A stretch of 64,000 nt of DNA. Origin: Frigoribacterium sp. CG_9.8 (lineage in GTDB: Bacteria; Actinomycetota; Actinomycetes; Actinomycetales; Microbacteriaceae). Below are positions 9,381-37,831 of the stretch, piece by piece. The translations under genes were made by a program, and so were the position numbers. The stretch is taken from positions 1 to 64,000 of the forward strand of contig NZ_JADOVH010000002.1 in the NCBI RefSeq assembly GCF_015751965.1, written 5' to 3'. Within the stretch, counting starts at the first letter, position 1. Every line of letters begins with the position of its first letter. Below the pieces are notes generated by a model. The model made no database searches. It had not been told where the DNA came from and was given only the letters and a program-made list of their open reading frames with translations.

Positions 9381-10154
9381 ATGGGAAGCACGATGCAAGG
9401 CGAGGAGACTGCCTCCGCAGCTAACATGTCAGCCGTCCTTGAGTTTGACTCGGACACCGCGAAACACGAGCAAGTTCGCACTCGCCTAATCGAGGTCATC
9501 GCGACCATGAACACTGGCGACCAGCTGCCATCGGAACGAGAACTCGCCGCACAGTTCGGCGTGAGCCGCATGACCCTTAGACAAGCCATCTCAAGCCTCG
9601 CTCGCGCCGGGTATGTATCACGGCTCCAAGGTGCCGGCACATTCGTCATTGACCGCACCATCTCGAAGAACACCGAACTCACCGGATTTACCGAAGATAT
9701 GGCTGCGCGCGGTTTCAACGCGTCATCGCGCCTTCTCAAGGTCGAGCGCGTCGCGGCGGGGGCCTTTCTCGGGCATGAACTCATATTGAGCCCGGAAGAA
9801 ATGGTCTTCCACATCGAGCGCGTCCGTATGGCGGACGGAATCCCGATGTGTCTGGAAACGATCGACCTTCCTGCGGACCTCACACCCGATCTCGATCAAC
9901 AACCGCTGGAGAAGTCCCTGTATGCAATCCTCGCCACGACTTACGGCATTGAATTATTCGAAGCCGACCAAATCATTACCCCAACAGTTGTCAACCAGGA
10001 ACAGGCAAGACTTCTCCAAGTGCCAATCCACAGCCCGGCCCTTATCGTAAAACGGATTGGATTCGACCGAAAACGGCGCCCTATTGAGCACGCGATCTCG
10101 ATCTATCGAGGCGACCGATACGACATTCGTCTGGTAATCAAGCGCCGAGAATAG
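9381..10154 (+). CDS. GntR-family transcriptional regulator with UTRA domain (DasR/NagR-like)
   Basis: The protein has 257 residues from ATG 9381. ATG 9393, with GGGA six bases upstream, is an alternative start. Residues ~28-95 form the GntR winged helix (QLPSERELAAQFGVSRMTLR, then YVSRLQGAGTFV). Residues ~100-255 form the UTRA effector domain, with the typical GFTEDMAARGF at its beginning and RRPIEHAISIYRGDRY near the end. DasR/NagR/YvoA regulators bind glucosamine-6-P or GlcNAc-6-P through UTRA and repress amino-sugar uptake and catabolism. Its location between the catabolic run and the importer, and the TCTAGACC-like sites around it, support the same role here. Confidence 0.92.
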   Translation: MGSTMQGEETASAANMSAVLEFDSDTAKHEQVRTRLIEVIATMNTGDQLPSERELAAQFGVSRMTLRQAISSLARAGYVSRLQGAGTFVIDRTISKNTELTGFTEDMAARGFNASSRLLKVERVAAGAFLGHELILSPEEMVFHIERVRMADGIPMCLETIDLPADLTPDLDQQPLEKSLYAILATTYGIELFEADQIITPTVVNQEQARLLQVPIHSPALIVKRIGFDRKRRPIEHAISIYRGDRYDIRLVIKRRE

Positions 10155-18514: not shown

Positions 18515-18565
18515 TGTTAACGCCGACCCAAAACAGGGCCAATAGTGCCGTTTGAAAACAGGACC
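18515..18565. repeat. IS21 left terminal repeats
   Basis: Two copies of the terminal sequence lie here: TGTTAACGCCGACCCAAAAC at 18515 and a second, more diverged copy ending GTTTGAAAACAGGACC. They face the right-end pair at 20599-20649. Confidence 0.85.
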
Positions 18566-18581
18566 ACTATGTGTGTTTCTA

Positions 18582-19337
18582 CTATGCCGTATCGGGTGCC
18601 GGTTGGTGGCTCTTGAGCCGGTAGCTGGTGCCTTTGAGGCTGATGACGTCGGCGTGATGAACGATGCGGTCGATCATTGCGGAGGCGACGGTGGGGTCGC
18701 CGAACACCCCGCCCCAGAGCCCGAATGACAGGTTGCTCGTCATGATCAGCGACGCGTGTTCGTAGCGGGACGCGACGAGCTGGAAGAACAAGTTCGCAGC
18801 GTCCTGATCGAACGGGATGTAGCCGACCTCATCGCAGATCAGGACGCTGTAGCGGCGCAGCCGGGTCAGCTCCGCGGCGAGTTTCCCGCGGGAGTGTGCG
18901 TCGTGAAGGCGGGCGACCCAGCCTGGCGCGGTGTCGAAGAGGACCCGGTGGCCGTGTTTGGCGGCCTGAACGCCCAGTGCGACGGCGAGGTGGGTCTTCC
19001 CGGTGCCGGGTGGGCCGAGGAGGACCACGTTGTTCGCTTCGGTCACGAAGGTGCTCGTGCCCAGGTGCGCGATCAGATTCCGGTCGGCGGAGGGCTGGTG
19101 ATCGAAGTTGAAGTCCTCCAGGGTCTTGTGCCCGGGGAACCGGGCGGCCTTGATCCGCAGGGCGGCGCCGGAGGCCTCGCGTTCGGAGACCTCGCGGGAG
19201 AGGACCGCGGCGAGGTATTCCTCGTGTGACCAGCCGGCGTCGCGGGCTTGGTCGCCCAGACGCCGGAACGCCTCCCCGATCCTCGGGGCGCGCAGTGCGC
19301 GGGCGTAGTACTCGATCTGAGATGCTGCGGTGCTCAT
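18582..19337 (-). CDS. istB: IS21 transposition helper ATPase
   Basis: The protein has 251 residues. It is an AAA+ ATPase of the DnaC/IstB type: NVVLLGPPGTGKTHLAVALG is the Walker A and VLICDEVGYIPFD the Walker B, with a sensor at ASLIMTSNLSFGLWG. IstB remodels target DNA for the IstA transposase. Its ATG overlaps the istA stop (ATGA). Confidence 0.96.
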   Translation of the reverse strand: MSTAASQIEYYARALRAPRIGEAFRRLGDQARDAGWSHEEYLAAVLSREVSEREASGAALRIKAARFPGHKTLEDFNFDHQPSADRNLIAHLGTSTFVTEANNVVLLGPPGTGKTHLAVALGVQAAKHGHRVLFDTAPGWVARLHDAHSRGKLAAELTRLRRYSVLICDEVGYIPFDQDAANLFFQLVASRYEHASLIMTSNLSFGLWGGVFGDPTVASAMIDRIVHHADVISLKGTSYRLKSHQPAPDTA

Positions 19338-20572
19338 GCGATCAGGCTCAGATCAGTCAGGCCGCGACCGGTGTCAACGCCGAACACGTCGTCGTAGGAG
19401 GAGAGGCTGGCCGTCTCCACGAACGCGACGTGAGCCTGGGGTCGTTGATGGCGGAGCAGTGTCTGGAACTGGCGCCGCAACACGGCCGCCTGGGCGACGT
19501 GGTCGGGGTCGGTGACGGTCAGTTGCCTGGCCCAGGCACGCTCGTGGGTGGTGACGGTGACACCGTTGTGAGTGACGTAGATGCGCTCAAGGTCAGCGGT
19601 CACGTCCACGAGCCGGCCGATCAGGCCCGGCGCGACGGAGTAGTCGTTCGAGTGCACCCGAACGTAGTAATCCCGGGGCAGCCGAACCGTGTTGCGAAAC
19701 AACACGTCCGGAACCACGGGCGAGAGCGGGCGCATCGCTGCCCGGTCCTGGGCGATCAGGTCGCTCGGCCTGGCCCGCCGGGAGCGGGAGTGCCGCGCGT
19801 TCGCGATCGGCAGCCAGGCCGCCATCTGCTCGTTGAAGTCCTGCGGTGAGGCGAAGTCGCGGCCCGGCAGAAACGACGAGCGGAAGAACCGGTTGCGGCG
19901 CTCGACCATGCCCTTGGACTCCGGGTCCCTGGCCTTGAGGAGCTTGATCTCGGTGCCCAGCGTCCCAGCGAATGCCGCTGTGGGCTCGGTGAGTTTGCCG
20001 CGACCGATACCGGTCTCGTTGTCCCAGAGCAGCCGCTTCGGAACCGCCTGCGCGGCGTGCAACAGGGACCACATCCCGCCGAGCAGATCGGGTGTCGTCC
20101 GCGACGGCAACATCAGCGCCTGGAAGAACCCCGAGAACGTCGACGTCATCACCAGCACCGGCGGCATGCCCTCCTGCCCGTGTCCCAGCGGCAACGGCTT
20201 GTGCGGGAACCACAAGTCGCATTGGACCTGCTGGCCCGGCTCGTGGACGAGGCGGTCCGCGGGATCCGGCGGGACATACTCCGGCCGGACGCCGGCGACC
20301 TTGTCACGGAACACCGACGCGGACCCGAGCCAGCCGACCCGCTCGGCCAACGTCGACGCTGGCATCGTCGGCGTGACGGCCAACAACGCCCGAACCTGCA
20401 GCGCGAACGCGTCGAAACCCGACCCGACCGCGGCCCGCTGGTACTTCGGCAGCCGGTCTGTTCCCAGCGCCCGCTCCACCGTTCCCCGCGAGACGCCGAC
20501 GAGCCGGCCGATCTCCCGCTTCGAATGCTCACCCGTCGAAAACAGTTGGCGTATCTTCGCCCAATCGTCCAT
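19334..20572 (-). CDS. istA: IS21 transposase
   Basis: The protein has 412 residues from ATG 20570-20572, with GGAAGG eight bases upstream. An N-terminal HTH (GEHSKREIGRLVGVSRGTVE) precedes an rve-type DDE integrase core (VQCDLWFPHKPLPLG, RLLWDNETGIGRGKL, and the ESKGMVERRNRFFRSSFLPG helix with the glutamate). The C-terminal part is the IstA Mu-C-like beta-barrel region. The gene is undamaged. Confidence 0.96.
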   Translation of the reverse strand: MDDWAKIRQLFSTGEHSKREIGRLVGVSRGTVERALGTDRLPKYQRAAVGSGFDAFALQVRALLAVTPTMPASTLAERVGWLGSASVFRDKVAGVRPEYVPPDPADRLVHEPGQQVQCDLWFPHKPLPLGHGQEGMPPVLVMTSTFSGFFQALMLPSRTTPDLLGGMWSLLHAAQAVPKRLLWDNETGIGRGKLTEPTAAFAGTLGTEIKLLKARDPESKGMVERRNRFFRSSFLPGRDFASPQDFNEQMAAWLPIANARHSRSRRARPSDLIAQDRAAMRPLSPVVPDVLFRNTVRLPRDYYVRVHSNDYSVAPGLIGRLVDVTADLERIYVTHNGVTVTTHERAWARQLTVTDPDHVAQAAVLRRQFQTLLRHQRPQAHVAFVETASLSSYDDVFGVDTGRGLTDLSLIA

Positions 20573-20598
20573 ATTAATCACCTTCCATACTGGTCGGT

Positions 20599-20649
20599 GG
20601 TCCTGTTTTCAATCGGCGTTAATGGTCCTGTTTTCGGTCGGCGTTAACA
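20599..20649. repeat. IS21 right terminal repeats
   Basis: Two tandem copies of GGTCCTGTTTTC(A/G)(A/G)TCGGCGTTAA occur here, the outer one ending in ACA at 20649, followed directly by the TTCAGC duplication. Confidence 0.85.
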
Positions 20650-20957: not shown

Positions 20958-21542
20958 CTATTGGCTGGGGGAAAGTCCGGCCTGGTGGCGGTAAAAGGTG
21001 GCTCGGCTCCATCCGACCAGCTGCGCTGCGGCGGTGGCACTTTTGCCGCCGGCTCGAGCTGCCTGCACAACTTGGAGCTTCTGTGCGATCAGCTCCGGGT
21101 CCGAGAGTGGTCGGCCGAAGATCGCGCCGGAAGTGCGAGCGGTCGCAATCCCAGCGTTGACCCGTTCGATGATGAGTTCGCGTTCGTACTCGGCCAGGGT
21201 GCTGAGCATATGCAGCAGAAGCCGGCCGCTGGTTGTTGAGGGATCGATCCCGTCTGAGATTGATTGAACCTGAATTCCGCGGGCACGAAAATCAGCAACA
21301 GTAGCGAGGACATCCAGAAGAGAGCGACCCAGCCGGTCGATGCGCCACACCACGATGGTGTCCTCTGCCCGCACGAACTGGAGCAGTTTCATCATGCCGG
21401 GACGGGTGCGAACGTCTTTGGAACCGGAGACCACGTCTGAGTAGATGTGCTCAGACAGGACGCCCGCTTTGAGTAACGCGTCGCGTTGGAGTTGGTCGTC
21501 TTGATGGACGGTGCTGATGCGGGTGTAACCAAGGAGTGCCAT
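20958..21542 (-). CDS. serine recombinase (resolvase/invertase family), second orphan copy
   Basis: The protein has 194 residues. The resolvase domain has LLGYTRIST with the nucleophilic Ser, IVVWRIDRLGRSLLDVLATV, and the E-helix TLAEYERELIIERVNAG. The C-terminal HTH is KSATAAAQLVGWSRATFYRH. It diverges strongly from the copies at 3811 and 32960, so these are independent acquisitions rather than duplications. The ~280-base region upstream (21543-21823) has no gene but includes TGTCT and AGACA arms 20 bp apart (around 21672-21701) that could be a res subsite. Confidence 0.92.
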   Translation of the reverse strand: MALLGYTRISTVHQDDQLQRDALLKAGVLSEHIYSDVVSGSKDVRTRPGMMKLLQFVRAEDTIVVWRIDRLGRSLLDVLATVADFRARGIQVQSISDGIDPSTTSGRLLLHMLSTLAEYERELIIERVNAGIATARTSGAIFGRPLSDPELIAQKLQVVQAARAGGKSATAAAQLVGWSRATFYRHQAGLSPSQ

Positions 21543-25064: not shown

Positions 25065-25256
25065 ATGCTGTTTCAGACATGTCCTGGGTGCGACGAAGAC
25101 GCTCACGTTTTCATGTTGGCACGCGATTTCGCAATAAGCAAAGGACTTTCACCGCACGAGCATTCTGTCGCGGTGGGCCTTCCCCTTACTGACACCCCGC
25201 GAGTCGCTGCCATTTGGGCTGAGAACCGGCGCGGTTGCTCGCGGTTGCACGGGTAA
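25065..25256 (+). CDS. small CxxC ORF preceding the PHP-ATPase gene
   Basis: The ORF has 63 codons from ATG 25065, with GGAG five bases upstream. The protein begins MLFQTCPGCDEDAHVFMLAR: a CPGC pair and a later Cys (RRGCSRLHG) may bind zinc. It stops nine bases before the GTG of the PHP-ATPase, so translation could be coupled. It is too short for certainty and no family is recognised. It may be a real accessory protein of the island. Confidence 0.45.
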   Translation: MLFQTCPGCDEDAHVFMLARDFAISKGLSPHEHSVAVGLPLTDTPRVAAIWAENRRGCSRLHG

Positions 25257-25265
25257 ATAGCGTGT

Positions 25266-28031
25266 GTGATCAATCGCGATTTAGCGCTTGGACATTCTCG
25301 ATATGGTTACCTCATGCAACGTCCAGCTGGCGCCTCGTGGAGGAAGATCGACATTCATGCTCACTCGCCTTCGTCCTTCGATTTTGGCGCTGAGGAAGGG
25401 CACCGTTCGGAGTCGACGGTGACCGTCGACGAATGGCTGCAGGCCTACATGGACGCGGGAATCGATGGCCTAGTTTTGGCAGATCACAACACTGGAGAAG
25501 GAATCGAGATTGCAAGGAGCCGACTTCAAGCGTTGAGGGAAACACGAGATCCAAGCTTCCGTGAGCTTGTCATCTTCTCAGGCGTTGAATTGACGGTCAA
25601 TGACGGTTATCACCTGCTTGCCATTTTCGACGTCGATACCCCTTCCTCACGAGTCGATCGCCTCCTCGCGCGCTGCAATTTTCAAGGAAGTCCCGGCAGC
25701 AGCGATGCCACCTCCACTTTGAACTTTGAGCAGGCGGTTGGTGAGATCGTGCGTGACGGTGGCTTGGCGGTGCCGGCCCACGTCGAGACTCGCGGGTACC
25801 TCCAGATTGATGAGCGCAGCCGGAGACCAATCGTCGAGAGCGGCCACGTTGTCGCGGCCGAGGCGACGACGCCGGCCGGACTGCTAAAGGTACGGGGACT
25901 CAAATGGGTGGCGCTTCTGGGATCAGATGCACACCATTTGACCGGTGACGGTGCACCCGATGGTCTCGAAGCGAAATTCCCCGGCAGCCATTACTCATGG
26001 ATCAAGATGGAGCATCCCAATCTCAGCGGCCTTAGGGTGGCGATTTCTGACGGTGACGACTCGGTACGCCTCTCGTCGGAAAGCGGGGACAATCCAAATA
26101 CGTTTTCGCACAGCGTCATTACGCGGGTAGTCGTCATTAAGGATTCGGCCAGATTCGAGCAGGTATTCAGTCCGTGGATGCCCGCAATCATCGGTGGTCG
26201 AGGTGTTGGCAAGTCGACGATATTGGAACTGGTCCGCCTCGCGCTCGGTCGATTCGAGGAGTTGCCTAGCCGCCTTCAAGAGGATCAGTCATACTTTTCA
26301 CCGGCTCCGGGGCGGACGGACGAGTCTCGCTTCTGGGGCAACTCCACGGAGATAGAGGTGCATTTCTCAAAGTTAGGACGCAAGTACAAAATCGCTTGGC
26401 GGGGGAGCGTCCCGGGCGCATCCACAATTTCGGTACTGAGTGAGGGCGCATGGGCGACTGAACCGGGATCTGCTACCGAAAGGTTCCCGGTTGTTATGTA
26501 CAGCCAAAAGCAAATTTACGAGACTGCACAGCGTCCGCAAAGCCTGCTGCGGATGTTGGACCAGCAGCCAGATGTTGACTATCCGAGCTGGAACGAGCGC
26601 TTCGCGCAGTCCTGTAACGAGTACCGCACTCGAAGGTCTGAGATTTCGATGCTCGACGGTGTTATCGAAACTGAAGCGCGACTTCGTGGCGAGCTCGCTG
26701 ACGCTGACGCTGAATTAGCTCAACTCAACGTGATCATAAATTCACCACTCATCAGCGAACTCGATGGCTTGGTGAAACAGGAACAAGCAACGATTGTGCA
26801 AGAACGGGCAGCTGTCCGTTTGGAGGTCGCGATTTCGGAGGCGCTATCAGATTTCGATTCCCTGCAGCCGGAGGAACCGTTGACGGAAAACTGGGCGCCC
26901 GTCGTCGCCAGAGTTGCAGCTGTTGAAGCGAGTGTCGCGGAGTCAAGGACGGCCTTGGCTCGACTCGTCTCGTCGCGCGAGACGTGGATCTTAGAGTCGG
27001 CAACTACACCTTCACCAAGCTCGGTGCGGGTTGAAGAGATTCGAACAACGCTGAGGCCACCGGACTCGGATGGGGAAGCTACAGAGACCGCCGAAGATCC
27101 TGCATCGCGTCGCGAGGTGCTCGCTGAGCGAAAGACTGCACTCGAGCAGTCGCTCCGAGAAGTCGAATCCGCACGAACCCGACAGGTTTCAGAGGTCGCG
27201 TTGGCGAAAGCGCTCTTGCTAGAGATCCGAACACATCGGGGAAACCTGACTTGGTCACGAAAGGCTGCCCTCTCGAAGCTGGAAAGCTCTGAGATCAAAC
27301 TCGATCTGTACGCACAGGCCGACGAGGACTCTCTCGAAAGCGATCTACGGGTTCTCAGTAACAAGCCGACCCTATTCGACGCGATATACGCCAAAGGTTC
27401 GGGACTTCGCTCGGGTCTCGTTCATCCACAGCACAACGACTACCTGGCGTCGATCGACAAGCTGAAGGCTGCCCTCAAAGACCTTCGGACCAACGGAGCG
27501 GACTCGAGCTTCATTGGTTGGTTGGGAACAATCGAAGGTCGGTTCTTTCCTCATTTGGCCGCACTGGATGCGCACAATCTCGAAACTGAAATTGATCTCT
27601 GGTTCCCACAAGATCGGCTTCAGGTGCGCTACCGTGAGGCGCCGGGGGGCCCCTTTCAAAGCATCGACCAAGCCTCGCCCGGGCAAAAGACTGCCGCACT
27701 GTTGGCCGTGATCTTGAAGATGAGTAGTGACCCACTCATCTTGGACCAGCCGGAAGATGATCTCGACAACAAGTTAATTTCTGAGCTCGTGGTGAGTGCG
27801 TTGAAACAATCTAAAGTTTCGAGACAAGTGATTGTTGTGACTCACAACGCAAATGTTGTCGTGAATGCTGACGCGGAGTTGGTTTGTGTCATGGAACACG
27901 GCGCCAATGTTCCTCATCCATCGGCCATCGGATCAATTCAGTCTGACCTCGTCAGGGAGGCGATTTGTTTGATTATGGAAGGCGGCGAACCTGCCTTTGT
28001 CGCGCGATATAAGAAGCTTGTTCGCGCGTAG
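25266..28031 (+). CDS. PHP-domain/SMC-like ATPase (TrlF-family-like)
   Basis: The protein has 921 residues from GTG 25266; ATG 25314 is an alternative and neither has a strong ribosome site. Residues ~27-250 form a PHP phosphoesterase domain: DIHAHSP, LADHNTGEG, FSGVELT, AVPAHVET and LLGSDAHH are the five metal-binding motifs. An ABC/SMC-type ATPase follows, with Walker A IIGGRGVGKST near 310, a coiled-coil insertion (~450-700) and the C-terminal signature ASPGQKTAALLAV, Walker B LILDQPEDDLDN and VVTHNANVVVNAD. This order matches proteins annotated as TrlF-family AAA-like ATPases, which occur in prokaryotic conflict islands. The coiled-coil ATPase is expected to sense DNA or RNA ends and the PHP domain to hydrolyse a phosphoester. 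Target unknown. Confidence 0.9.
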   Translation: MINRDLALGHSRYGYLMQRPAGASWRKIDIHAHSPSSFDFGAEEGHRSESTVTVDEWLQAYMDAGIDGLVLADHNTGEGIEIARSRLQALRETRDPSFRELVIFSGVELTVNDGYHLLAIFDVDTPSSRVDRLLARCNFQGSPGSSDATSTLNFEQAVGEIVRDGGLAVPAHVETRGYLQIDERSRRPIVESGHVVAAEATTPAGLLKVRGLKWVALLGSDAHHLTGDGAPDGLEAKFPGSHYSWIKMEHPNLSGLRVAISDGDDSVRLSSESGDNPNTFSHSVITRVVVIKDSARFEQVFSPWMPAIIGGRGVGKSTILELVRLALGRFEELPSRLQEDQSYFSPAPGRTDESRFWGNSTEIEVHFSKLGRKYKIAWRGSVPGASTISVLSEGAWATEPGSATERFPVVMYSQKQIYETAQRPQSLLRMLDQQPDVDYPSWNERFAQSCNEYRTRRSEISMLDGVIETEARLRGELADADAELAQLNVIINSPLISELDGLVKQEQATIVQERAAVRLEVAISEALSDFDSLQPEEPLTENWAPVVARVAAVEASVAESRTALARLVSSRETWILESATTPSPSSVRVEEIRTTLRPPDSDGEATETAEDPASRREVLAERKTALEQSLREVESARTRQVSEVALAKALLLEIRTHRGNLTWSRKAALSKLESSEIKLDLYAQADEDSLESDLRVLSNKPTLFDAIYAKGSGLRSGLVHPQHNDYLASIDKLKAALKDLRTNGADSSFIGWLGTIEGRFFPHLAALDAHNLETEIDLWFPQDRLQVRYREAPGGPFQSIDQASPGQKTAALLAVILKMSSDPLILDQPEDDLDNKLISELVVSALKQSKVSRQVIVVTHNANVVVNADAELVCVMEHGANVPHPSAIGSIQSDLVREAICLIMEGGEPAFVARYKKLVRA

Positions 28032-28168
28032 CCTTCCTGGGACACACTGCGATCTCCACGACGCGCGGAAGCTCGCACGCTCCCACTTATCGGGTTAGTG
28101 AATCAAATCGACAGCAGACCCCCATCGCCCCATGCCCGCCTAGAAACTCTGCACTACTAATCTGTGGT

Positions 28169-31100
28169 ATGCCCTTCGTAGAAAAGCGGGCCCAGGATCG
28201 TCAATCAGGAATGAGCGCGAATCACGTGGTTGAAAACCCTTTATTGACCTTCGCGCGAGTGTTTGCATCACGAACCGTCGGGCGAGCGGAAGCGGACGTT
28301 CACTCCGCGATCGCGTCTTTTCTCACAGTTGCAGATCTGGGGCTGTTGGTTGGGGCTGTCGCCAAGCTTGAGGATCCGACTGCGGACGGAACTCGGCGCC
28401 GAATCGACATTTCATATGGTCGGCTAATTATCGAAGTGAAGAAGGACTTGACCGTCAAGAATGCGGTTGAGAATGCTGAACCGCAACTCGCGGGTTACTT
28501 GCAGAACAAGATGGACACCACAGGAGATGTTTTCGCTGGCATCATCACCGATGGTGTCCTGTGGCGGCTCTACGCTCTGCACCGTGACGGACTTGCGTTT
28601 GTCACTGAATTCAAACTTGCGCGCGGGGACCATGACTCTGTCGACCGGTTGCAAACTTGGCTAGACGCAATACTGCTCACAGGCCCTAAGCTCACAGCCA
28701 CAAAACCGCGGATCATTGAGCGGCTCGGCTCCGGCTCGCCACGATTTCTCTTTGACCGGGCGCGTCTGGAAAAGCTTTATGAAGAAAACCGGCACAGCCC
28801 GGAAGTTTCCCTGAAGAAAGAACTGTGGGCTCGGCTTTTGCGCACAGCGCTGGGAACAGCATTCACTGACGACGAGAAACTTTTCCTCGACCACACCATG
28901 CTTGTTATCGAAGCAGAAGTCATCGCTCATTTGGTGGTTGGGCTTGAACCAGCTTCGCTGAGCGCCAAAGCTGTGCTGGCCGGCGACCAATTTCATACAG
29001 CGGGAATTACCAATGTGGTCGAGGCCGACTTCTTCGACTGGCCCGCCGAAGTCGATGGTGGCCCCGAGCTTGTGATGGACATTGTTCGAGAGATTAGCCA
29101 GTTCGAATGGTCACACGTGCAGCACGACGTTCTCAAAGCACTTTATGAGGCGGTCATTACCCCCGAGGTCCGAAAAAATTTGGGGGAGTATTACACCGAG
29201 GACTGGTTGGCCCAACGGATAGTTGACCTACAGGTCGACGATCCGTTGAACCAACGTGTAGCCGACGTGGCCTGTGGGTCGGGGACGTTCGTGTTTCATG
29301 CCGTCCGTCGGTACCTTGAAGCCACCGCGGCGGCCGGCATCCGGAACGCAGATGCAATTGACCAACTCCAGGACCGAGTGTTTGGCATGGACATCCACCC
29401 CGTGTCGGTCGTACTCGCACGTGTCACATACCTGTTGGCGATCGGTGCGGACAGGCTCCGCGACCGGCGCCGGCTAACGGTGCCCATCTACTTAGGCGAC
29501 TCAATCCAGTGGGGCCGAGGCTCACGCGCTTTCGACGGCGACGTGATCAGCATCCCCGTCGACGCTGAAGACCTCGCTACCGTGGACACGGAAGCCTACG
29601 AAGCTCTCTTCACGGACAGTCAAGTGCTACGGATCCCCGTCTCCGCTATCAGCGATCCGGCGACTCTCGATCTTCTTGTCAGTGAACTGGCCACCCTCGC
29701 GCAGACGTATACCGACACCAGCGAAAAATATCCGCTCCTAAGTGACACGCTGACGCGATACGAAGTGACTGACGCAGCAGACCGAACGATTCTGACCGAG
29801 ACCTTCCACACGCTCTGCGACCTGAACGCTGCCGGCCGTGACCACATCTGGGGTTACTTCGTGCGCAACCAGATTCGCCCCATCTGGTTATCGCGGCCAG
29901 ATCGCCAACTCGATCGCCTGATCGGCAACCCCCCTTGGTTGTCTTACCGTTTCATGTCCGAGAGCATGCAGGCCCAGTTCAAGCTCATGAGCGAATCCCG
30001 CAACCTATGGGAGGGTGGCAAAGTTGCCACCCATCAAGATCTTGTTGGGCTCTTCATCGCCCGCACGGTCGAACAGTTCCTTCGACCAGGTGGAACCTTC
30101 GCTTTCGTCACACCCTTCGCTGTCCTCTCTCGGATGCAATACGCAGGATTCCGCGCCGGTAAATGGCTGCATAACGGGACCGACCAAGTGACGGCCAAGT
30201 TCAGCGAATCATGGGACCTCTCGGCAATCCGACCGGCGCTTTTCCCTGTTCCGTCAGCCGTCGTATTCGGGGTCAAGACAAACAATGATGCGACAGCCCT
30301 TCCCTCGAGCGTCCTAGAGCTGGCCGGACGCCATGACGAGCTATTTGAAACGCGCGCCTCGATTCAGCAGCTGACTGGCGAGGATACTTACCTGTCGCCC
30401 TACGCCACAGCACCAATTCAGGGCGCGACGATCGTGCCGCGTGTTCTCTTCATGGTTAATGAAGAGGAAGCCGGCCCGTTAGGTCGGCCGGCTGGGACCA
30501 CCGCTGTCGTAAGTGCACGGTCGACGCTCGAGAAGAAGCCATGGTCCGAGGTCGAGACTTTCACCACCACAATTGAGTCAGAATTCGTACACCCCATACT
30601 CCTCGGGTCATCGATCGTCCCTCACCGCATCGCATGGCCAGCCCAGACCGTGCTTCCGGTACGAGCCGGTCGCTTGTTGAATGCGACCGAGATCCGCAAG
30701 CACGAGCTGCTCCACCAGAGATGGTCATTGCTCGGGTCAATGTGGAGCGACCGGAAGAAACAAGGCGCTATATCTCTTCTCGAGCAGGTCGACTGGCAAG
30801 GGAAACTTCACCGGCAGTTCCCCGCCCCGCCAATACGAGTCCTCTATTCGAGTTCAGGGAACAGGATTGCTGCAACCATCTGCAGCGACACTTCCGCCAT
30901 CGTGGACAACACCCTGTACTGGCTGCCCGTTTCCTCCCGAGCGGAGGGGCACTTCCTCTGTGCGATCCTGAATAGTGGCGTCGTTGCTGAACGGATCGGG
31001 AAGCTACAGTCGCGAGGTCTGTTCGGTGCTCGCCACATACATATGATTCCGTGGCGTCTTCCGATACCTCGATACGATCCCGACCACGAAACTCATGCAC

Positions 31101-31279
31101 TACTCGCGTCGCTCGGGGATGAAGCAACAAAGTTGGCCGCGTCTGTAGACCTCACCGCGACAACACGATTCACAGAAGGACGCGCCGCAGTTCGAAAGGC
31201 TCTTTCTGCCAGCGGCACCGCACTCTCCATCGATGAGGCGGTGACGACGCTGTTCGAGGTGGCTGTCCCGGTAAACTGA
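28169..31279 (+). CDS. single-chain restriction-modification protein (type IIG/IIL-like)
   Basis: The protein has 1036 residues from ATG 28169; ATG 28211 is an alternative and neither has a clear ribosome site. The N-terminal ~170 residues resemble a PD-(D/E)XK nuclease: RRIDISYGRLIIEVKKDL gives Asp80, Glu89 and Lys91. The central methyltransferase has VADVACGSGTFVFHAVRRY (motif I, ~367) and IGNPPWLSYR (motif IV NPPW, ~587), typical of N6-adenine methylases of the Eco57I/MmeI group. The C-terminal ~300 residues would hold the target-recognition domain (ILNSGVVAERIGKLQSRGLF). One polypeptide would recognise, methylate and cut. A BREX PglX-type role is less likely because no other BREX genes are present. 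Confidence 0.88.
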   Translation: MPFVEKRAQDRQSGMSANHVVENPLLTFARVFASRTVGRAEADVHSAIASFLTVADLGLLVGAVAKLEDPTADGTRRRIDISYGRLIIEVKKDLTVKNAVENAEPQLAGYLQNKMDTTGDVFAGIITDGVLWRLYALHRDGLAFVTEFKLARGDHDSVDRLQTWLDAILLTGPKLTATKPRIIERLGSGSPRFLFDRARLEKLYEENRHSPEVSLKKELWARLLRTALGTAFTDDEKLFLDHTMLVIEAEVIAHLVVGLEPASLSAKAVLAGDQFHTAGITNVVEADFFDWPAEVDGGPELVMDIVREISQFEWSHVQHDVLKALYEAVITPEVRKNLGEYYTEDWLAQRIVDLQVDDPLNQRVADVACGSGTFVFHAVRRYLEATAAAGIRNADAIDQLQDRVFGMDIHPVSVVLARVTYLLAIGADRLRDRRRLTVPIYLGDSIQWGRGSRAFDGDVISIPVDAEDLATVDTEAYEALFTDSQVLRIPVSAISDPATLDLLVSELATLAQTYTDTSEKYPLLSDTLTRYEVTDAADRTILTETFHTLCDLNAAGRDHIWGYFVRNQIRPIWLSRPDRQLDRLIGNPPWLSYRFMSESMQAQFKLMSESRNLWEGGKVATHQDLVGLFIARTVEQFLRPGGTFAFVTPFAVLSRMQYAGFRAGKWLHNGTDQVTAKFSESWDLSAIRPALFPVPSAVVFGVKTNNDATALPSSVLELAGRHDELFETRASIQQLTGEDTYLSPYATAPIQGATIVPRVLFMVNEEEAGPLGRPAGTTAVVSARSTLEKKPWSEVETFTTTIESEFVHPILLGSSIVPHRIAWPAQTVLPVRAGRLLNATEIRKHELLHQRWSLLGSMWSDRKKQGAISLLEQVDWQGKLHRQFPAPPIRVLYSSSGNRIAATICSDTSAIVDNTLYWLPVSSRAEGHFLCAILNSGVVAERIGKLQSRGLFGARHIHMIPWRLPIPRYDPDHETHALLASLGDEATKLAASVDLTATTRFTEGRAAVRKALSASGTALSIDEAVTTLFEVAVPVN

Positions 31280-31336
31280 CGCGTTAAGGCCGGGAGCCCA
31301 ACGGAGAAGTGTCCAGCTTTATTTTGAGGAGTTCGA

Positions 31337-32200
31337 ATGATTCGCTTCACTGATTTTTTGCCAGTGGCCGAACCTGAGCTGACGAAGGTGAAGTTCAATA
31401 TCCGCGCGGGTATCGGCGGCGCGGAAGCATGGGACCTCCTCTTAGGAAGCGACCTTGACGAGTGGCTCAATATGACTCGCCACCGCGAAGCGGGGAGCAC
31501 AAACAACAACCTGGATAGAGCTGAGTACGTCCTCTCGTTTGCGCAGTACTACCCTTACGGTCCCCAATATTTCATCTTCGGTGGGTTCTTTCGGGTGGAG
31601 AAGTCGATCCCCGAGGTGGACCACGGTTACGGCTACGACCTCGAGCAGCTCGATCGATACTCCGAATACATCAAACGGTTAATCATCAAGTTGGAGCGAC
31701 CCGTCGGACGCGATGTTTATCTTCGTTGGTACGAGTCATTGCAGGGAAGCAAACTCAATCCGGAAATTTACGAGCTGGCATCCGATGTGAAGCTCGGAAC
31801 CTTCTCCGGCTTCCAGAACGTTCGACTCCGCCACCACGAACTCCAGCGCATCATTGCCAACGATGAGCCGAGCTGGAAAGACGCCCTTTCGAGCGTTAAG
31901 GGTGTCTACGTCATCACAGACCTCAGCGACGGTCGGCTATACGTCGGGTCCGCGTCCGGCGAGGCAAGCGGGCTCTGGCAGAGATGGGCGGGCTACGCTC
32001 ACCTTCGCAACCTGACGGGTGGCAATAAGGAACTTGTTCGCCTTCGAGCCGAAAAAGGCGACGCACATATAATCGAGAACTTCCAATATTCCATCCTGGA
32101 AATCTTCGATCCGAAGACGAAGGCCGAAGTAATTCTTAAGCGCGAATCCTTCTGGAAGCTCGCTCTAGATTCCGGCAAGCACGGAATGAATCACAACTGA
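31337..32200 (+). CDS. GIY-YIG nuclease-domain protein
   Basis: The protein has 287 residues from ATG 31337, with a GAGGAG ribosome site. The N-terminal ~180 residues are a separate domain without motifs I recognise (LLLGSDLDEWLNMTRHREAG, YYPYGPQYFIFGGFFRV). Residues ~188-287 are a GIY-YIG domain: KGVYVITDLSDGRLYVGSAS is the core, LWQRWAGY supplies the conserved Arg, and LKRESFWKLALDS and the final MNHN supply the Glu and Asn. The family cleaves DNA with one metal ion. It lies 57 bases after the restriction-modification gene in the same direction and so belongs to the same island. Confidence 0.88.
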   Translation: MIRFTDFLPVAEPELTKVKFNIRAGIGGAEAWDLLLGSDLDEWLNMTRHREAGSTNNNLDRAEYVLSFAQYYPYGPQYFIFGGFFRVEKSIPEVDHGYGYDLEQLDRYSEYIKRLIIKLERPVGRDVYLRWYESLQGSKLNPEIYELASDVKLGTFSGFQNVRLRHHELQRIIANDEPSWKDALSSVKGVYVITDLSDGRLYVGSASGEASGLWQRWAGYAHLRNLTGGNKELVRLRAEKGDAHIIENFQYSILEIFDPKTKAEVILKRESFWKLALDSGKHGMNHN

Positions 32201-32356
32201 CGACGAAACCAAAATCGGCCGGTTATCCCTGTGGGTGCTCGGCCAGCAGATTGCTGGCGGCAGCTCGACTTACGCGAAGTGGGTCCGGCTTAGATTTCCA
32301 AAGTGGGTCCCAGTAACGCTGCCATCGTCCGTGGGGCGACGTGAGAGGCTTCCCTC

Positions 32357-32935
32357 ATGGCTGATACGAAGCAGACGAAGACGATCGGTGAGCACGCCGT
32401 CGCCGCGGAGCTTGCGCGGCATGGGTGGGCACCGGCGTTGACGAGAGATGGCCTGGAACGAACTGACATCCTGGCAGTCGAGCTGTCTGGAAACCGGACC
32501 ATGGTGGAGGTGCAAGTGAAGGCCGCTCGCGGCCGTGGGCACCGATTGTCTTGGCCCCTTGGAGAGAAGTCTCAGCAGCCAGCCCTCCACCCTCGAGAGT
32601 GGTTCGTGATGGTGGCAATCGACGAGCTAGTGACAGAGCCACTGCGCTTCTTCATCGTGCCGAGGGACCACGTCGCGGCCGCGGCATGGATCGAACACAT
32701 GAACTGGCTAACCGAACCCGGGATAGCCCCCGGTGTAAGAAATGTCGGGCCTGAGCGATCCCGTGTGACGCTACCGACTTTCGCCCGCTACGAGAACGCC
32801 TGGTCGACACTCGGTGAACCTACCGACCAGGTTCCGATCTTGTTGCCGCCAAAGTTCCATGACTACGCCGAAGACGCCGCGCGGGTTGGGCTGCGACCTA
32901 ATCACCCATGGAGCAAAGCCCTGCCGAGCTGGTAA
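32357..32935 (+). CDS. small PD-(D/E)XK-like protein
   Basis: The protein has 192 residues from ATG 32357. The N-terminal part reads as a minimal restriction-like core: TIGEHAVAAELARHGW helix, RTDILAVEL for the Asp, and TMVEVQVKAARG for an E-x-Q/V-K-type catalytic strand. The remainder lacks recognised motifs. Many DUF4365-like or Vsr-like accessory nucleases have this size and shape. It is the last gene of the island, 156 bases after the GIY-YIG gene and convergent with a serine recombinase. Nuclease activity is inferred. Confidence 0.65.
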   Translation: MADTKQTKTIGEHAVAAELARHGWAPALTRDGLERTDILAVELSGNRTMVEVQVKAARGRGHRLSWPLGEKSQQPALHPREWFVMVAIDELVTEPLRFFIVPRDHVAAAAWIEHMNWLTEPGIAPGVRNVGPERSRVTLPTFARYENAWSTLGEPTDQVPILLPPKFHDYAEDAARVGLRPNHPWSKALPSW

Positions 32936-32959: not shown

Positions 32960-33541
32960 CTAACCGGCGAGAGCTCGAGATCTTCTGTAGAACGTCGCTC
33001 GCGACATTCCGAGATCACGGGCAACCTGAGCGGCTGGGTCGCCGCCTTCGACGAGGCGGATGGCGCTGCGGATCTGGCTGTCGGTGACGCGTTGTGGGCG
33101 TCCGCCGAGATCCTTCCCGGCGTCGCGGCGCTTGCTGACGGAGTCGATGATCCGCTCGCGCTTGATATCGTGCTCCATCTGCGCGAGAGCCGCCATGATC
33201 GTGAAGAGCATCGATCCCATCGGGGTCGAGGTGTCCACGTCGCCACCGCCGAGGTTCAACGCGCGAAGGCCCGCGCCACGGTCGCGGAGCCCTTGAGCGA
33301 AGTCGAGCATGTTCTGCGTTGATCGGCCGAGCCTGTCCAGAGTTGTGATGACGAGGGTGTCTCCTGCTTCGAGCGCGGTGAGGGCGCGATCGAACTGCGG
33401 GCGGGAGGCACGAGCGCCTGAGACGCCCTGGTCGATGTAGAGATCATCGCGCCGGACGCCGGCGGCGAGCAGATCGGTTTCTTGCCGATCCGTCGATTGC
33501 GGCCCGGTCGATAGGCGCGCGTAACCGATCAGTTTCGTCAC
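32960..33541 (-). CDS. serine recombinase (resolvase/invertase family), third orphan copy
   Basis: The protein has 193 residues. It contains IGYARLSTGPQSTDRQ with the nucleophilic Ser, VITTLDRLGRSTQNMLDFAQ, and AALAQMEHDIKRERIIDS. The HTH is DPAAQVARDLGMSRATFYRR. It ends 25 bases from the stop of the preceding gene and its start lies 40 bases from the IS30 end, so it marks the island's right border. No partner transposase is present. Confidence 0.92.
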   Translation of the reverse strand: MTKLIGYARLSTGPQSTDRQETDLLAAGVRRDDLYIDQGVSGARASRPQFDRALTALEAGDTLVITTLDRLGRSTQNMLDFAQGLRDRGAGLRALNLGGGDVDTSTPMGSMLFTIMAALAQMEHDIKRERIIDSVSKRRDAGKDLGGRPQRVTDSQIRSAIRLVEGGDPAAQVARDLGMSRATFYRRSRALAG

Positions 33542-33631
33542 AACGCTCCAGGTGTCTCGTAACTAGCAGTGAGTACTGAAGGCGAATTCAGGTGGTGAGT
33601 GCAACGCCCTGAGTTCTAGTGGGTGTTGTCG

Positions 33632-34652: not shown

Positions 34653-34712
34653 TGGAGTGGTCCCCGAAAGTTGGACACCTAATTTAGGGTTCCATCTTCA
34701 GGGAGTAGTCAG

Positions 34713-35195
34713 ATGTACTTGAAAAGCACGTTGAGTCATTCCGACGCCGTTTCGGCGGTCGAAATGTTTGAGCAGGGGTTCACTGCGAAGTCGGTGGCCA
34801 TGTCTCTTGACCTTGCCCGGTCTCCGGTCCAAATGTTGTATCAGCGATGGCAGCTACGAGGTTCGGGGGCATTGGTGACGAGAGGCCGAAAACAGTACGA
34901 TTTCGAGATCAAGCTCGAAATTGTGCGCCGCCATGTCAGGGGTGAGTCCGGGAGGGCTCTGGCAGAGGAGTATGGCCTTCCGTCGCCCAATACCGTGGCG
35001 ACCTGGACGGGCATCTATCGGCGTGACGGGGAAGATGGGCTCCTCCCGAAGCGGCGAGGCAGACCGCCAACCGATCATAGGGATTCCCCTCCGAAGTCCG
35101 AGATCGAGACGCTGCGGGTCGAGAACGAACGGCTTCGCGCTGAGGTCGCCTATTTGGGAAAATTGCGGGCCTTGAGGTCACAGGAACGACGCTGA
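34713..35195 (+). CDS. IS3 OrfA (HTH protein), frameshift donor
   Basis: The protein has 160 residues with two HTH units (HSDAVSAVEMFEQGFTAKSV; SGRALAEEYGLPSPNTVATW) and a terminal leucine-zipper-like stretch (IETLRVENERLRAEVAYLGK). It binds the IS ends. The slippery heptamer G GGA AAA is at 35156-35162; a -1 shift there fuses it to orfB (…AYLGK-IAGLEVTG…). Confidence 0.9.
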   Translation: MYLKSTLSHSDAVSAVEMFEQGFTAKSVAMSLDLARSPVQMLYQRWQLRGSGALVTRGRKQYDFEIKLEIVRRHVRGESGRALAEEYGLPSPNTVATWTGIYRRDGEDGLLPKRRGRPPTDHRDSPPKSEIETLRVENERLRAEVAYLGKLRALRSQERR

Positions 35196-36049
35196 AAGTT
35201 CAAGCTGTCGATGATCTCAAGGCGCACTACCCGTTACCTCTGTTGCCGCAGCTCGCGGACCTTCCCCGGTCGACGTTCTACGACCACCGGCGCAGGCTTA
35301 ACCGCAGCGACACTCGGGCCGGTATCAAGGAAGCTATCCGTGGCGCATTCGAGGCGGCCAAGAGTGCCTACGGGCACCGGCGCGTCCGTGCTGTTCTGCT
35401 CCGACAGGGGTGGACGGTGTCTAAAAAGACGGTGCTCAAACTGATGCGCGAGCTTGGGTTGCAGTGCCCGGTGCGGCGGCGTAAACGGTACAACTCGTTC
35501 CGAGGCGAGGTCGGGGAGGCAGCCGACAACGTGTTGAACCGCCAGTTCGCCGCAGAATCCAGACACACAAAGTGGGTCACGGACGTGACCGAGTTCAACA
35601 TCGGCGCTACCAAGGTCTACCTTTCGCCGGTCCTGGATCTCCACGACAATCGGATCATCTCTGCCACGGCGGGGCCCTCTCCGAGCGTGAAGATGGTCAC
35701 CGACGGCCTCCGCACGGCAATAGACGCTCTCGGCCCCGGCGAGAAACCCCTCGTCCACTCCGACCAGGGATTCCAGTATCGCCACACCCTCTGGCGAGAC
35801 ACATTGCGCGGCGCCGGGCTCACCCAGTCGATGTCTCGCAAGGGCACGTGCCTGGATAACGCCGTCATGGAGGGATTCTTCAGTCATCTCAAGGAGGAAT
35901 GGTTCCGCATCCAGAAACCCGAAACTCTCGACGAATTTCACGAAGGTCTCACTGACTACCTCCGATGGTGGAACACCACCCGAATTCAACAGCGGCTCGG
36001 CTACCTCAGCCCCGACGAGTACCGCGCCCAAACAACCGCCACCACATAG
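35162..36049 (+). CDS. IS3 OrfB transposase domain (made by -1 frameshift)
   Basis: The coordinates begin at the first -1-frame codon after the G GGA AAA slippery site; the earliest independent start is a TTG at 35243. The domain has the IS150-type OrfB features: STFYDHRRR, YGHRRVRAVL, then the rve DDE core with TDVTEFNIG (D), LVHSDQGFQY (D) and DNAVMEGFFSHLKEEW (E). It ends with the YLRWWNTTRIQQRLGYLSP tail. All catalytic residues are present. Confidence 0.9.
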   Translation: MAGLEVTGTTLKVQAVDDLKAHYPLPLLPQLADLPRSTFYDHRRRLNRSDTRAGIKEAIRGAFEAAKSAYGHRRVRAVLLRQGWTVSKKTVLKLMRELGLQCPVRRRKRYNSFRGEVGEAADNVLNRQFAAESRHTKWVTDVTEFNIGATKVYLSPVLDLHDNRIISATAGPSPSVKMVTDGLRTAIDALGPGEKPLVHSDQGFQYRHTLWRDTLRGAGLTQSMSRKGTCLDNAVMEGFFSHLKEEWFRIQKPETLDEFHEGLTDYLRWWNTTRIQQRLGYLSPDEYRAQTTATT

Positions 36050-36091
36050 AGTTCCATTACCGAGTCCAACTTTCGGGGACCACTCCACTGC

Positions 36092-36421: not shown

Positions 36422-37831
36422 GGTTGCGTCCTTTAACGTGGTGTATCGGATCCGGGCGAGCGTGTCGTCAGAGATGGCGACGGTCACCGCGTGATCCTTC
36501 GAGAAGAACCTTCTAAACCCATCTCGAAAGGAACTACGACGATGACCGTCGCACCCAGTATCGACCCTGCCCGCTTCATTGACGACCACCTCGAGCAGGC
36601 GTCCCCGGACTTGCTTCGGGACATGCTCACCACCTTCATCAATACCCTGCTGTCGGCGGATGCTGACGCGGTCTGCGGTGCCGCTTACGGCACCGTGTCG
36701 GACGATCGAATCAACCGGCGCAATGGTTACCGGCACCGTGACTTCGACACCCGCACGGGAACGATCGATGTCCAGATTCCGAAGTTGCGGCAGGGCACCT
36801 ACTTCCCCGATTGGCTACTGGAGCGCCGCCGCCGCGCGGAACGGGCCCTGACCACGGTTGTGGCGACCTGCTACCTACTTGGCGTCTCGACCCGTCGGAT
36901 GGAGAAACTGGTCGACTCCCTCGGGATCACCTCGTTGTCGAAATCACAGGTATCCGTGATGGCGAAAGAGCTCGACGAGCATGTCGCAGACTTCCGCACC
37001 AGGCCCCTGGACGCTGGCCCCTACACGTTCGTCGCCTGCGACGCCCTGACGATGAAAGTGCGCGAAGGAGGCCGAGTCGTGAACGTGTCAGTCATGGTCG
37101 CCACCGGCGTGAACAGTGACGGGCATCGCGAGATCCTGGGGCTGCAAGTCGCTTCCACCGAGGACGGGGCCGGCTGGTTAGCGTTCTTCCGCGACCTCAC
37201 CGCGAGAGGACTCACCGGGGTGATGCTCGTCACCTCCGACGCCCACGCGGGACTTGTCGCAGCAACAGCAGCGACCTTGCCCGGAGCGTCCTGGCAACGA
37301 TGCCGAACCCACTACGCCGCGAACCTGATGAGCACCGTCCCGAAGTCCTCCTGGCCCTGGGTGAAAACACTGCTGCACTCCGTCTATGACCAACCCGACG
37401 CGGACTCAGTCCACGCCCAATTCGACCGAGTCCTCGACGCTCTGGAACACAAACTGCCGAAAGCGTTCGCCCACCTCGACGCCGCCCGTGCCGACATCCT
37501 CGCGTTCACCGTGTTCCCGAAAGAGCTCTGGCGACAGATCTGGTCCAACAACCCCAACGAGCGCTTGAACCGCGAGATCCGACGCCGCACCGACGTCGTC
37601 GGGATATTCCCCAACCGTGACGCGATCATCCGCCTCGTTGGCGCTGTCCTCGCCGAGCAACACGACGAATGGGCGGAATCCCGCCGCTACCTCGGCCTCG
37701 ACGCCCTCCAGAAATCACAGACCGCCGGCACCACCAACACCACCGAGGAGGCCACCCCAGACCTCGCCCTCACCGCCTGACCCACCGAAGGATCACACCG
37801 ATTCAGATACACCACGCAAAAGGACTTGACC
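36422..37831 (+). mobile_element. IS256-family element
   Basis: The ends are imperfect inverted repeats: GGTTGCGTCCTTTAACGTGG at 36422 and the complement of its counterpart ending at 37831 (26 of 34 positions agree, sharing CGTGGTGTATC). No 8-9-bp target duplication is visible, so one flank may have been rearranged. The transposase gene is intact. Confidence 0.88.
36542..37780 (+). CDS. IS256-family transposase
   Basis: The protein has 412 residues from ATG 36542, after an AAGGA ribosome site; an upstream frame begins in the terminal region and is not favoured. It belongs to the Mutator-type family: RINRRNGYRHRDFDTRTGTI, IPKLRQGTYFPDWLLERRRR, TFVACDALTMKVREGG (first Asp), VMLVTSDAHAGLVAA (second Asp), the WQRCRTHYAANLM signature, and SNNPNERLNREIRRRTDVVG with the Glu. 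The gene looks functional. Confidence 0.95.
   Translation: MTVAPSIDPARFIDDHLEQASPDLLRDMLTTFINTLLSADADAVCGAAYGTVSDDRINRRNGYRHRDFDTRTGTIDVQIPKLRQGTYFPDWLLERRRRAERALTTVVATCYLLGVSTRRMEKLVDSLGITSLSKSQVSVMAKELDEHVADFRTRPLDAGPYTFVACDALTMKVREGGRVVNVSVMVATGVNSDGHREILGLQVASTEDGAGWLAFFRDLTARGLTGVMLVTSDAHAGLVAATAATLPGASWQRCRTHYAANLMSTVPKSSWPWVKTLLHSVYDQPDADSVHAQFDRVLDALEHKLPKAFAHLDAARADILAFTVFPKELWRQIWSNNPNERLNREIRRRTDVVGIFPNRDAIIRLVGAVLAEQHDEWAESRRYLGLDALQKSQTAGTTNTTEEATPDLALTA

Follow-up and report, generated by a model that had tools for sequence, protein, structure and literature searches.

Do four nuclease-type genes which lie in line on one strand form a single defence system, or have independent modules been collected side by side? 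This question is raised by a locus of Frigoribacterium sp. CG_9.8 (positions 25266–32935) within the first 64,000 nucleotides of contig NZ_JADOVH010000002.1 (GCF_015751965.1), a 64-kb stretch which we call the window. The four genes encode a TrlF/Ppl-family protein, a type IIG restriction enzyme, a UzuA-type nuclease and a small PD-(D/E)XK-like protein, here named PDx. An earlier reading of the letters without database searches (the sequence-only reading) had proposed that these nuclease- or phosphoesterase-type genes, arranged head to tail, make up one composite system. The arrangement itself was confirmed: all four open reading frames (ORFs) are open, lie in line on the plus strand and are separated by gaps of 137, 57 and 156 bp. 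We favour, with a probability of roughly 0.7, the interpretation that the locus is a defence island assembled from four autonomous modules of already known kinds and not one machine. The analysis shows the family membership of the four proteins (for PDx as a candidate), their intact motifs and the non-conserved linkage of their genes.

Family membership of the four proteins

The first gene (25266–28031) encodes a protein of 921 amino acids in which an N-terminal PHP phosphoesterase/exonuclease domain is fused to an SMC/ABC-type ATPase with a coiled coil. It belongs to the TrlF family, scoring 451.7 bits against the NCBIfam model NF045780 (curated cut-off 350), with residues 22–918 aligned to positions 2–943 of the profile. 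The Ppl equivalog NF042955, however, gives only 448.1 bits at a cut-off of 1000, and the protein is therefore not a member of this equivalog; the Ppl profile of PADLOC matches with an E value of 8.2e-123. Candidate PHP ligands are H31, H33, D73/H74, E108, H172 and D221/H223, and the ATPase part carries a Walker A motif (310–318), SPGQK at 804 and LILDQPEDD at 824. Both motif sets are complete; a complete PHP metal site fused to an SMC-type ATPase had been suggested before. The motifs are presumed to have their usual roles.

The second gene (28169–31279) encodes a BseRI-like type IIG restriction enzyme and N6-methylase in one chain of 1036 amino acids, which is matched by the PADLOC profile REase_MTase_IIG (1.9e-76) and by the Pfam families N6_Mtase (3.6e-08) and Eco57I (9.6e-06). 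The predicted ExK-bearing N-terminal domain on an NPPW methylase is indeed present, with RIDI-x7-EVKK at 78–92, ACGSG at 368 and NPPW at 587. The protein therefore has the nuclease motif and the N6-methylase core of a type IIG enzyme, its specificity domain being weak (a TaqI_C-like stretch with an E value of only 0.026).

The third gene (31337–32200) encodes a protein of 287 amino acids with matches to the UzuA profile of PADLOC (3.6e-52), Pfam GIY-YIG (5.1e-06) and phrog_26160 (1.6e-63). The GIY-YIG core was correctly read as intact, GVYVI being found at 189 and YVGSA at 202, and the protein is a member of the Uzume (UzuA) family.

The fourth gene (32357–32935) encodes PDx, a small freestanding protein of 192 amino acids which was analyzed by family search, alignment, structure modelling and a fold search of the PDB. 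Pfam, NCBIfam and PADLOC gave no match up to an E value of 0.1, and a PHROG of unknown function matched weakly (5e-06). The AlphaFold model has a mean predicted local distance difference test score (pLDDT) of 78.6 and a predicted template modelling score (pTM) of 0.79. Its best PDB matches are PD-(D/E)XK nucleases (among them the SPARDA nuclease, Hjc, EcoRV and I-Ssp6803I), and they are weak, the best E value being 0.0012 and none falling below 0.001. PDx contains TDILAV at 36 and VEVQVK at 50, the latter including the EVQVK strand noticed before, and the order of the strands and the residues fit a D...ExK alpha–beta core. To sum up, the family calls were right for the first three genes, which have profile matches; PDx is a candidate PD-(D/E)XK nuclease from its motifs and weak fold matches.

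The four genes do not recur together in the neighbourhoods searched

Each of the four proteins was used as a tblastn query against 102 neighbourhoods (42 + 60 loci). Except in the loci L092 and L127, where the further matches are remote, nothing but the anchor gene was matched. Among the 102 neighbourhoods no locus other than the window contains three of the four specific genes. The genes are also rare one by one. Among 349 genomes of the window's family at least two each, its own genome included, carry TrlF and the type IIG enzyme (both counts are lower bounds); the second TrlF copy is broken (G518) and the second type IIG match comprises the C-terminal part only (G383). PDx is found in 7 of 199 genomes of this family (6 besides the window's own), and UzuA, searched across the phylum, in 4 of 296 genomes, again including its own. 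The second TrlF copy (L082, 9621–10455) is a remnant in which the C-terminal part is split over two frames and interrupted by one stop, at 54–68% identity to that of the window; the second type IIG match (L083, 9707–10499) corresponds to residues 765–1029.

The contexts of the homologues differ as well. The nearest TrlF relative (L035, 52% identical) is flanked by genes other than restriction genes, and the six type IIG plasmid loci inspected of 37 matching records (L027–L032) do not contain TrlF. In three genomes and four plasmids the surroundings of UzuA have nothing in common with the window. PDx occurs in varied settings, in L015 1.4 kb from an insertion sequence (IS) near a SMODS/AGS_C (CBASS-type) gene and in L016 near a type I restriction operon, as judged by the ORF sequences. 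Scans of viral contigs with PDx and with UzuA returned no relatives. A protein of unknown function (phrog_9827) adjoins PDx in L013 (9923–11824) and the broken TrlF in L082 (7240–9051), both in the window's family, and could be a passenger common to these islands.

Since only the anchor gene matched in the searched neighbourhoods, apart from L092 and L127, and since the contexts of PDx and UzuA differ, the proposal of one four-part system is not supported. The sequence-only reading had suggested following the co-occurrence of the genes across genomes and had named scattered contexts as the sign of a chance accumulation; this is largely what we find.

TrlF and restriction genes

Judged by gene neighbourhoods, the sole recurring link appears to be that of TrlF with restriction or methylation genes. 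In 396 genomes of the phylum TrlF exceeds the cut-off at 15 places, 14 of them besides the window. Of these 14 loci, which include one left unannotated (G030, on a 5.3-kb contig), seven share a gene row with a DNA methylase of type II, IIG/MmeI, I, III (three loci) or DUF1156. TrlF is accompanied by an Eco57I methylase and a XhoI-type nuclease in L067, by type III-like Mod and Res in L069, L070 and L074, and by type I M and R in L078, where a gene for 460 amino acids with no Pfam match occupies the place of S. In L070 gaps of 4–5 bp separate TrlF from the methylase on one side and the helicase on the other, and in L077 it is 9 bp away from an MmeI-type IIG gene. In L081 TrlF is joined by a TrlG-like gene, a DUF1156 methylase, an SNF2 helicase and DUF499. 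L071, which is not one of the seven, has only the helicase and a TrlG-like gene. Methylases farther off were left uncounted (L076, 3.4 kb; L100, 3.5 kb; L036, 4.7 kb).

Among 19 plasmid loci, hand-picked for diversity, seven are tied to restriction or BREX genes (L037, L062, L092, L094, L095, L097 and L098) and the other 12 are not. Of the 22 long PHP-type TrlF loci on viral contigs, a neighbour with a methylase motif lies within 4.5 kb at 2, as judged by motif and similarity, several of these loci lying near contig ends with short flanks. Across all loci the partners are of types I, II, IIG and III, DUF1156/DUF499 and BREX, and TrlF is found beside or inside their operons.

A tree was built of 33 TrlF proteins, 15 of which carry the restriction label (among them L071 with the helicase only and L095 with brxL). 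The label requires 10 changes on it compared with a mean of 11.2 after shuffling, and is thus no more clustered than by chance. L098 was left off the tree; the start used for it precedes a stop which the annotated start follows. Moreover, of two TrlF proteins that are 96% identical one is accompanied by a type IIG enzyme (L092) and the other is not (L151). The link is therefore recurrent but facultative. Thus, of the single system that had been proposed, the four-part set finds no support and a narrower association remains, in which TrlF repeatedly occurs with methylases or restriction enzymes of many unrelated types and often with none.

Two further features of these TrlF loci were observed. 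Among L068–L076 the first PHP motif HxH is altered in L071, L072 and L074 (HVN, QAN and QVH), whose PHP domains may be inactive judging from these residues. In L071, L081, L036 and L076 a TrlG-like gene with HATPase_c_4 follows closely behind TrlF (with SLFN_AlbA_2 in three of the four), so that the TrlF–TrlG pair also exists outside Photorhabdus.

Surroundings of the locus

The placement of the island next to a serine recombinase and IS elements was also confirmed. Two resolvase/invertase-type serine recombinases are encoded on the minus strand, at 20958–21542 (Pfam Resolvase, 6.5e-39) and at 32960–33541 (2.1e-36), the latter ending 24 bp beyond PDx. On the left flank there is an IS21-type element (18515–20649), whose inverted repeats are 53 nt long. 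On the right flank a pair of inverted repeats, at 33581 and 36280, brackets a transposase gene with an rve domain. The repeats of this pair are 28 nt long and 82% complementary. They also enclose a second element (34653–36087), which has perfect inverted repeats of 24 nt, so that one insertion sequence appears to have inserted within another. Beyond these elements lies a Mutator-type element (36428–37825).

We considered whether the four genes are carried by one mobile element that is bounded by end repeats of its own and rejected this, because the clear inverted repeats are those of the IS elements and no pair encloses the set. The window contains no tRNA genes. Intrinsic terminators and promoters were discarded as evidence on operon structure, their counts in the scan not exceeding those in shuffled sequences. 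The small ORF with a CxxC motif noticed before in front of the island (25053 or 25065 to 25256, plus strand) is open but is probably not a gene: NCBIfam, Pfam, PADLOC and the PHROGs gave no match and the plasmids a single one with an E value of 0.9. We therefore rejected it as a fifth component.

One system or several modules

Assuming autonomous modules, the type IIG enzyme would methylate the host sites and cut unmethylated incoming DNA; that the protein marks self DNA, as suggested before, would be a plausible role for every enzyme of type IIG. TrlF would be silent as long as nucleotides are plentiful, and when infection depletes the nucleotides and generates ends it would degrade single strands from their 3′-OH ends. 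UzuA and PDx would be separate nucleases with triggers of their own, and the effects of the modules would probably be additive. All these biochemical steps are carried over from type IIG enzymes in general and from Escherichia coli Ppl (PMC12904381). Two of the intergenic gaps, of 137 and 156 bp, speak against a tight coupling.

Several observations weigh against independent modules. One gap is short (57 bp) and the four genes share one strand. Relatives may have been missed, since the family search with the long proteins scored two candidates per genome, which makes the TrlF and type IIG counts lower bounds, and since the genome-contig scan with TrlF, whose search patterns lay off the conserved motifs, found two relatives only. 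In L092, on a Chitinibacter plasmid, a type IIG enzyme with a methylase core 24% identical to that of the window precedes TrlF by 91 bp, next to two serine recombinases. In the viral contig L127 a same-strand row contains a methylase gene, then TrlF and then a gene for a PDx-like protein, with other genes in between; the PDx-like gene (9556–10080, 174 amino acids, 28% identity over 119 residues, E 9e-05) follows 0.8 kb after TrlF, and no searched locus besides this one and the window combines the two. Finally, judged by position alone, a methylase profile matches within 5 kb at 5 of 15 non-window TrlF loci (one of them, G170, a broken copy), compared with 0.45 expected at random and with 1 of 27 AAA_15/AAA_21 controls (Fisher p 0.016). 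The enrichment over these ATPases is seen at 2, 5, 5.5 and 10 kb, the distance of 5.5 kb having been added post hoc after one type I locus was found at 5054 bp. The controls come from the same genomes and include housekeeping ATPases, and are thus a rough yardstick; GajA, considered as a further control family, was found in only 4 of 198 genomes.

The alternative that survives best is a functional pair of TrlF and the type IIG enzyme, with UzuA and PDx as bystanders, which we consider rather unlikely. E. coli Ppl is activated at DNA ends, and therefore restriction cuts in unmodified phage DNA could supply the 3′-OH ends for TrlF; or TrlF could serve as a second line when restriction is blocked, similar to PrrC and RloC, which guard restriction systems. 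A guard of that type would be silenced by the linked restriction–modification enzyme and released by anti-restriction factors. Such a pair would agree with the methylase or restriction operons at half of the actinobacterial and 7 of the 19 chosen plasmid loci, with the enrichment within 5 kb, with the tight arrangement in L070, with the ten label changes on the tree, which imply many independent gains or losses, and with the precedent of ABC-ATPase nucleases tied to restriction–modification (PMC2610378). On the other hand, at least half of the TrlF loci have no restriction neighbour, and only 2 of the 22 viral ones have one, nearly identical TrlF proteins occur with and without a type IIG enzyme, the sister L035 is unpaired, and in the window itself TrlF and the type IIG gene are 137 bp apart. 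Moreover, three solitary true-Ppl loci (L064–L066) suggest that Ppl acts alone, and the comparison is blurred by the housekeeping ATPases among the controls and by the fact that defence genes cluster anyway.

A generalization of this idea, to which we give similarly little credence, is that restriction systems of all types can be supplemented by a TrlF-family PHP-ATPase as a general, exchangeable accessory. Such proteins would have been recruited repeatedly beside enzymes which make DNA ends (types I, II, IIG and III) or which label the host's own DNA (BREX and DUF1156). They would make a restriction cut, in itself repairable, an irreversible loss for the phage, or would act as a safeguard where phages block restriction; in the window we would then see an actinobacterial IIG version. 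If true, two well-known defences would be joined in one principle, to cut and then to degrade from the end, and the frequent siting of a supposedly single-gene system inside restriction operons would be explained.

A dedicated four-part system is highly improbable: the same-strand, head-to-tail order with all motifs present and the remote row in L127 would fit it, but no other of the 102 loci holds three of the four genes, and PDx and UzuA are found in unrelated contexts.

In the simplest reading each module acts alongside the others; the pairing of TrlF and the type IIG enzyme is a modest, testable idea. As it stands, the locus is one more defence island and a caution that head-to-tail order does not prove one system.

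Comparison with known systems

We know of no described partner gene for Uzume; the UzuA of the window, by comparison, is the third gene in a row. Uzume is listed as enriched in Actinobacteria with its mechanism unknown (PMC10482375). The type IIG enzyme resembles BseRI-like restriction–modification proteins, full-length homologues with 40–44% identity being encoded on plasmids of Corynebacterium, Rhodococcus, Kocuria and Rhizobium, one of them annotated as BseRI. The plasmid homologues inspected (6 of the 37 records), however, adjoin replication or other genes and not TrlF.

E. coli Ppl is described in a review as a single-gene 3′–5′ single-stranded DNA exonuclease which needs depletion of nucleoside triphosphates (NTPs) and 3′-OH ends (PMC12904381). 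By analogy, the window TrlF may likewise be an NTP-inhibited 3′–5′ exonuclease. It shares the PHP domain and the SMC/ABC ATPase over the full length and is 27–32% identical to Ppl and TrlF proteins of enterobacterial and Vibrio plasmids. It passes the cut-off for TrlF and fails that for the Ppl equivalog, and it adjoins a type IIG gene and not a TrlG or TrlR partner. The name TrlF originates from the temperature restricting locus trlR-trlF-trlG of Photorhabdus, where the mutations described struck trlG (PMC7554251), whereas the window has neither a trlG-like (SLFN_AlbA_2) nor a trlR-like gene.

Two papers already touch on the link between TrlF and restriction. On plasmid pYR3 type I methyltransferase genes are found among the trl genes (PMC7554251). 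The study of RptR-controlled type I restriction islands reports that in four genomes hsdS and hsdR are separated by an AAA-like ATPase together with a putative RNA-binding protein (PMC12255303); we suppose that these two may be TrlF with TrlG. These islands differ from the window in that they are of type I and not IIG, and the site is treated as a recombination hotspot. In the openly licensed literature we found no description of TrlF as a general restriction partner.

PrrC and RloC, which are ABC-ATPase nucleases genetically tied to restriction–modification (PMC2610378), offer an analogy in the way of working only, since the window TrlF carries a PHP domain where these proteins have an anticodon nuclease, and stands outside that family. 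Clusters of several defence systems are reported to be common in Actinobacteria (PMC10482375).

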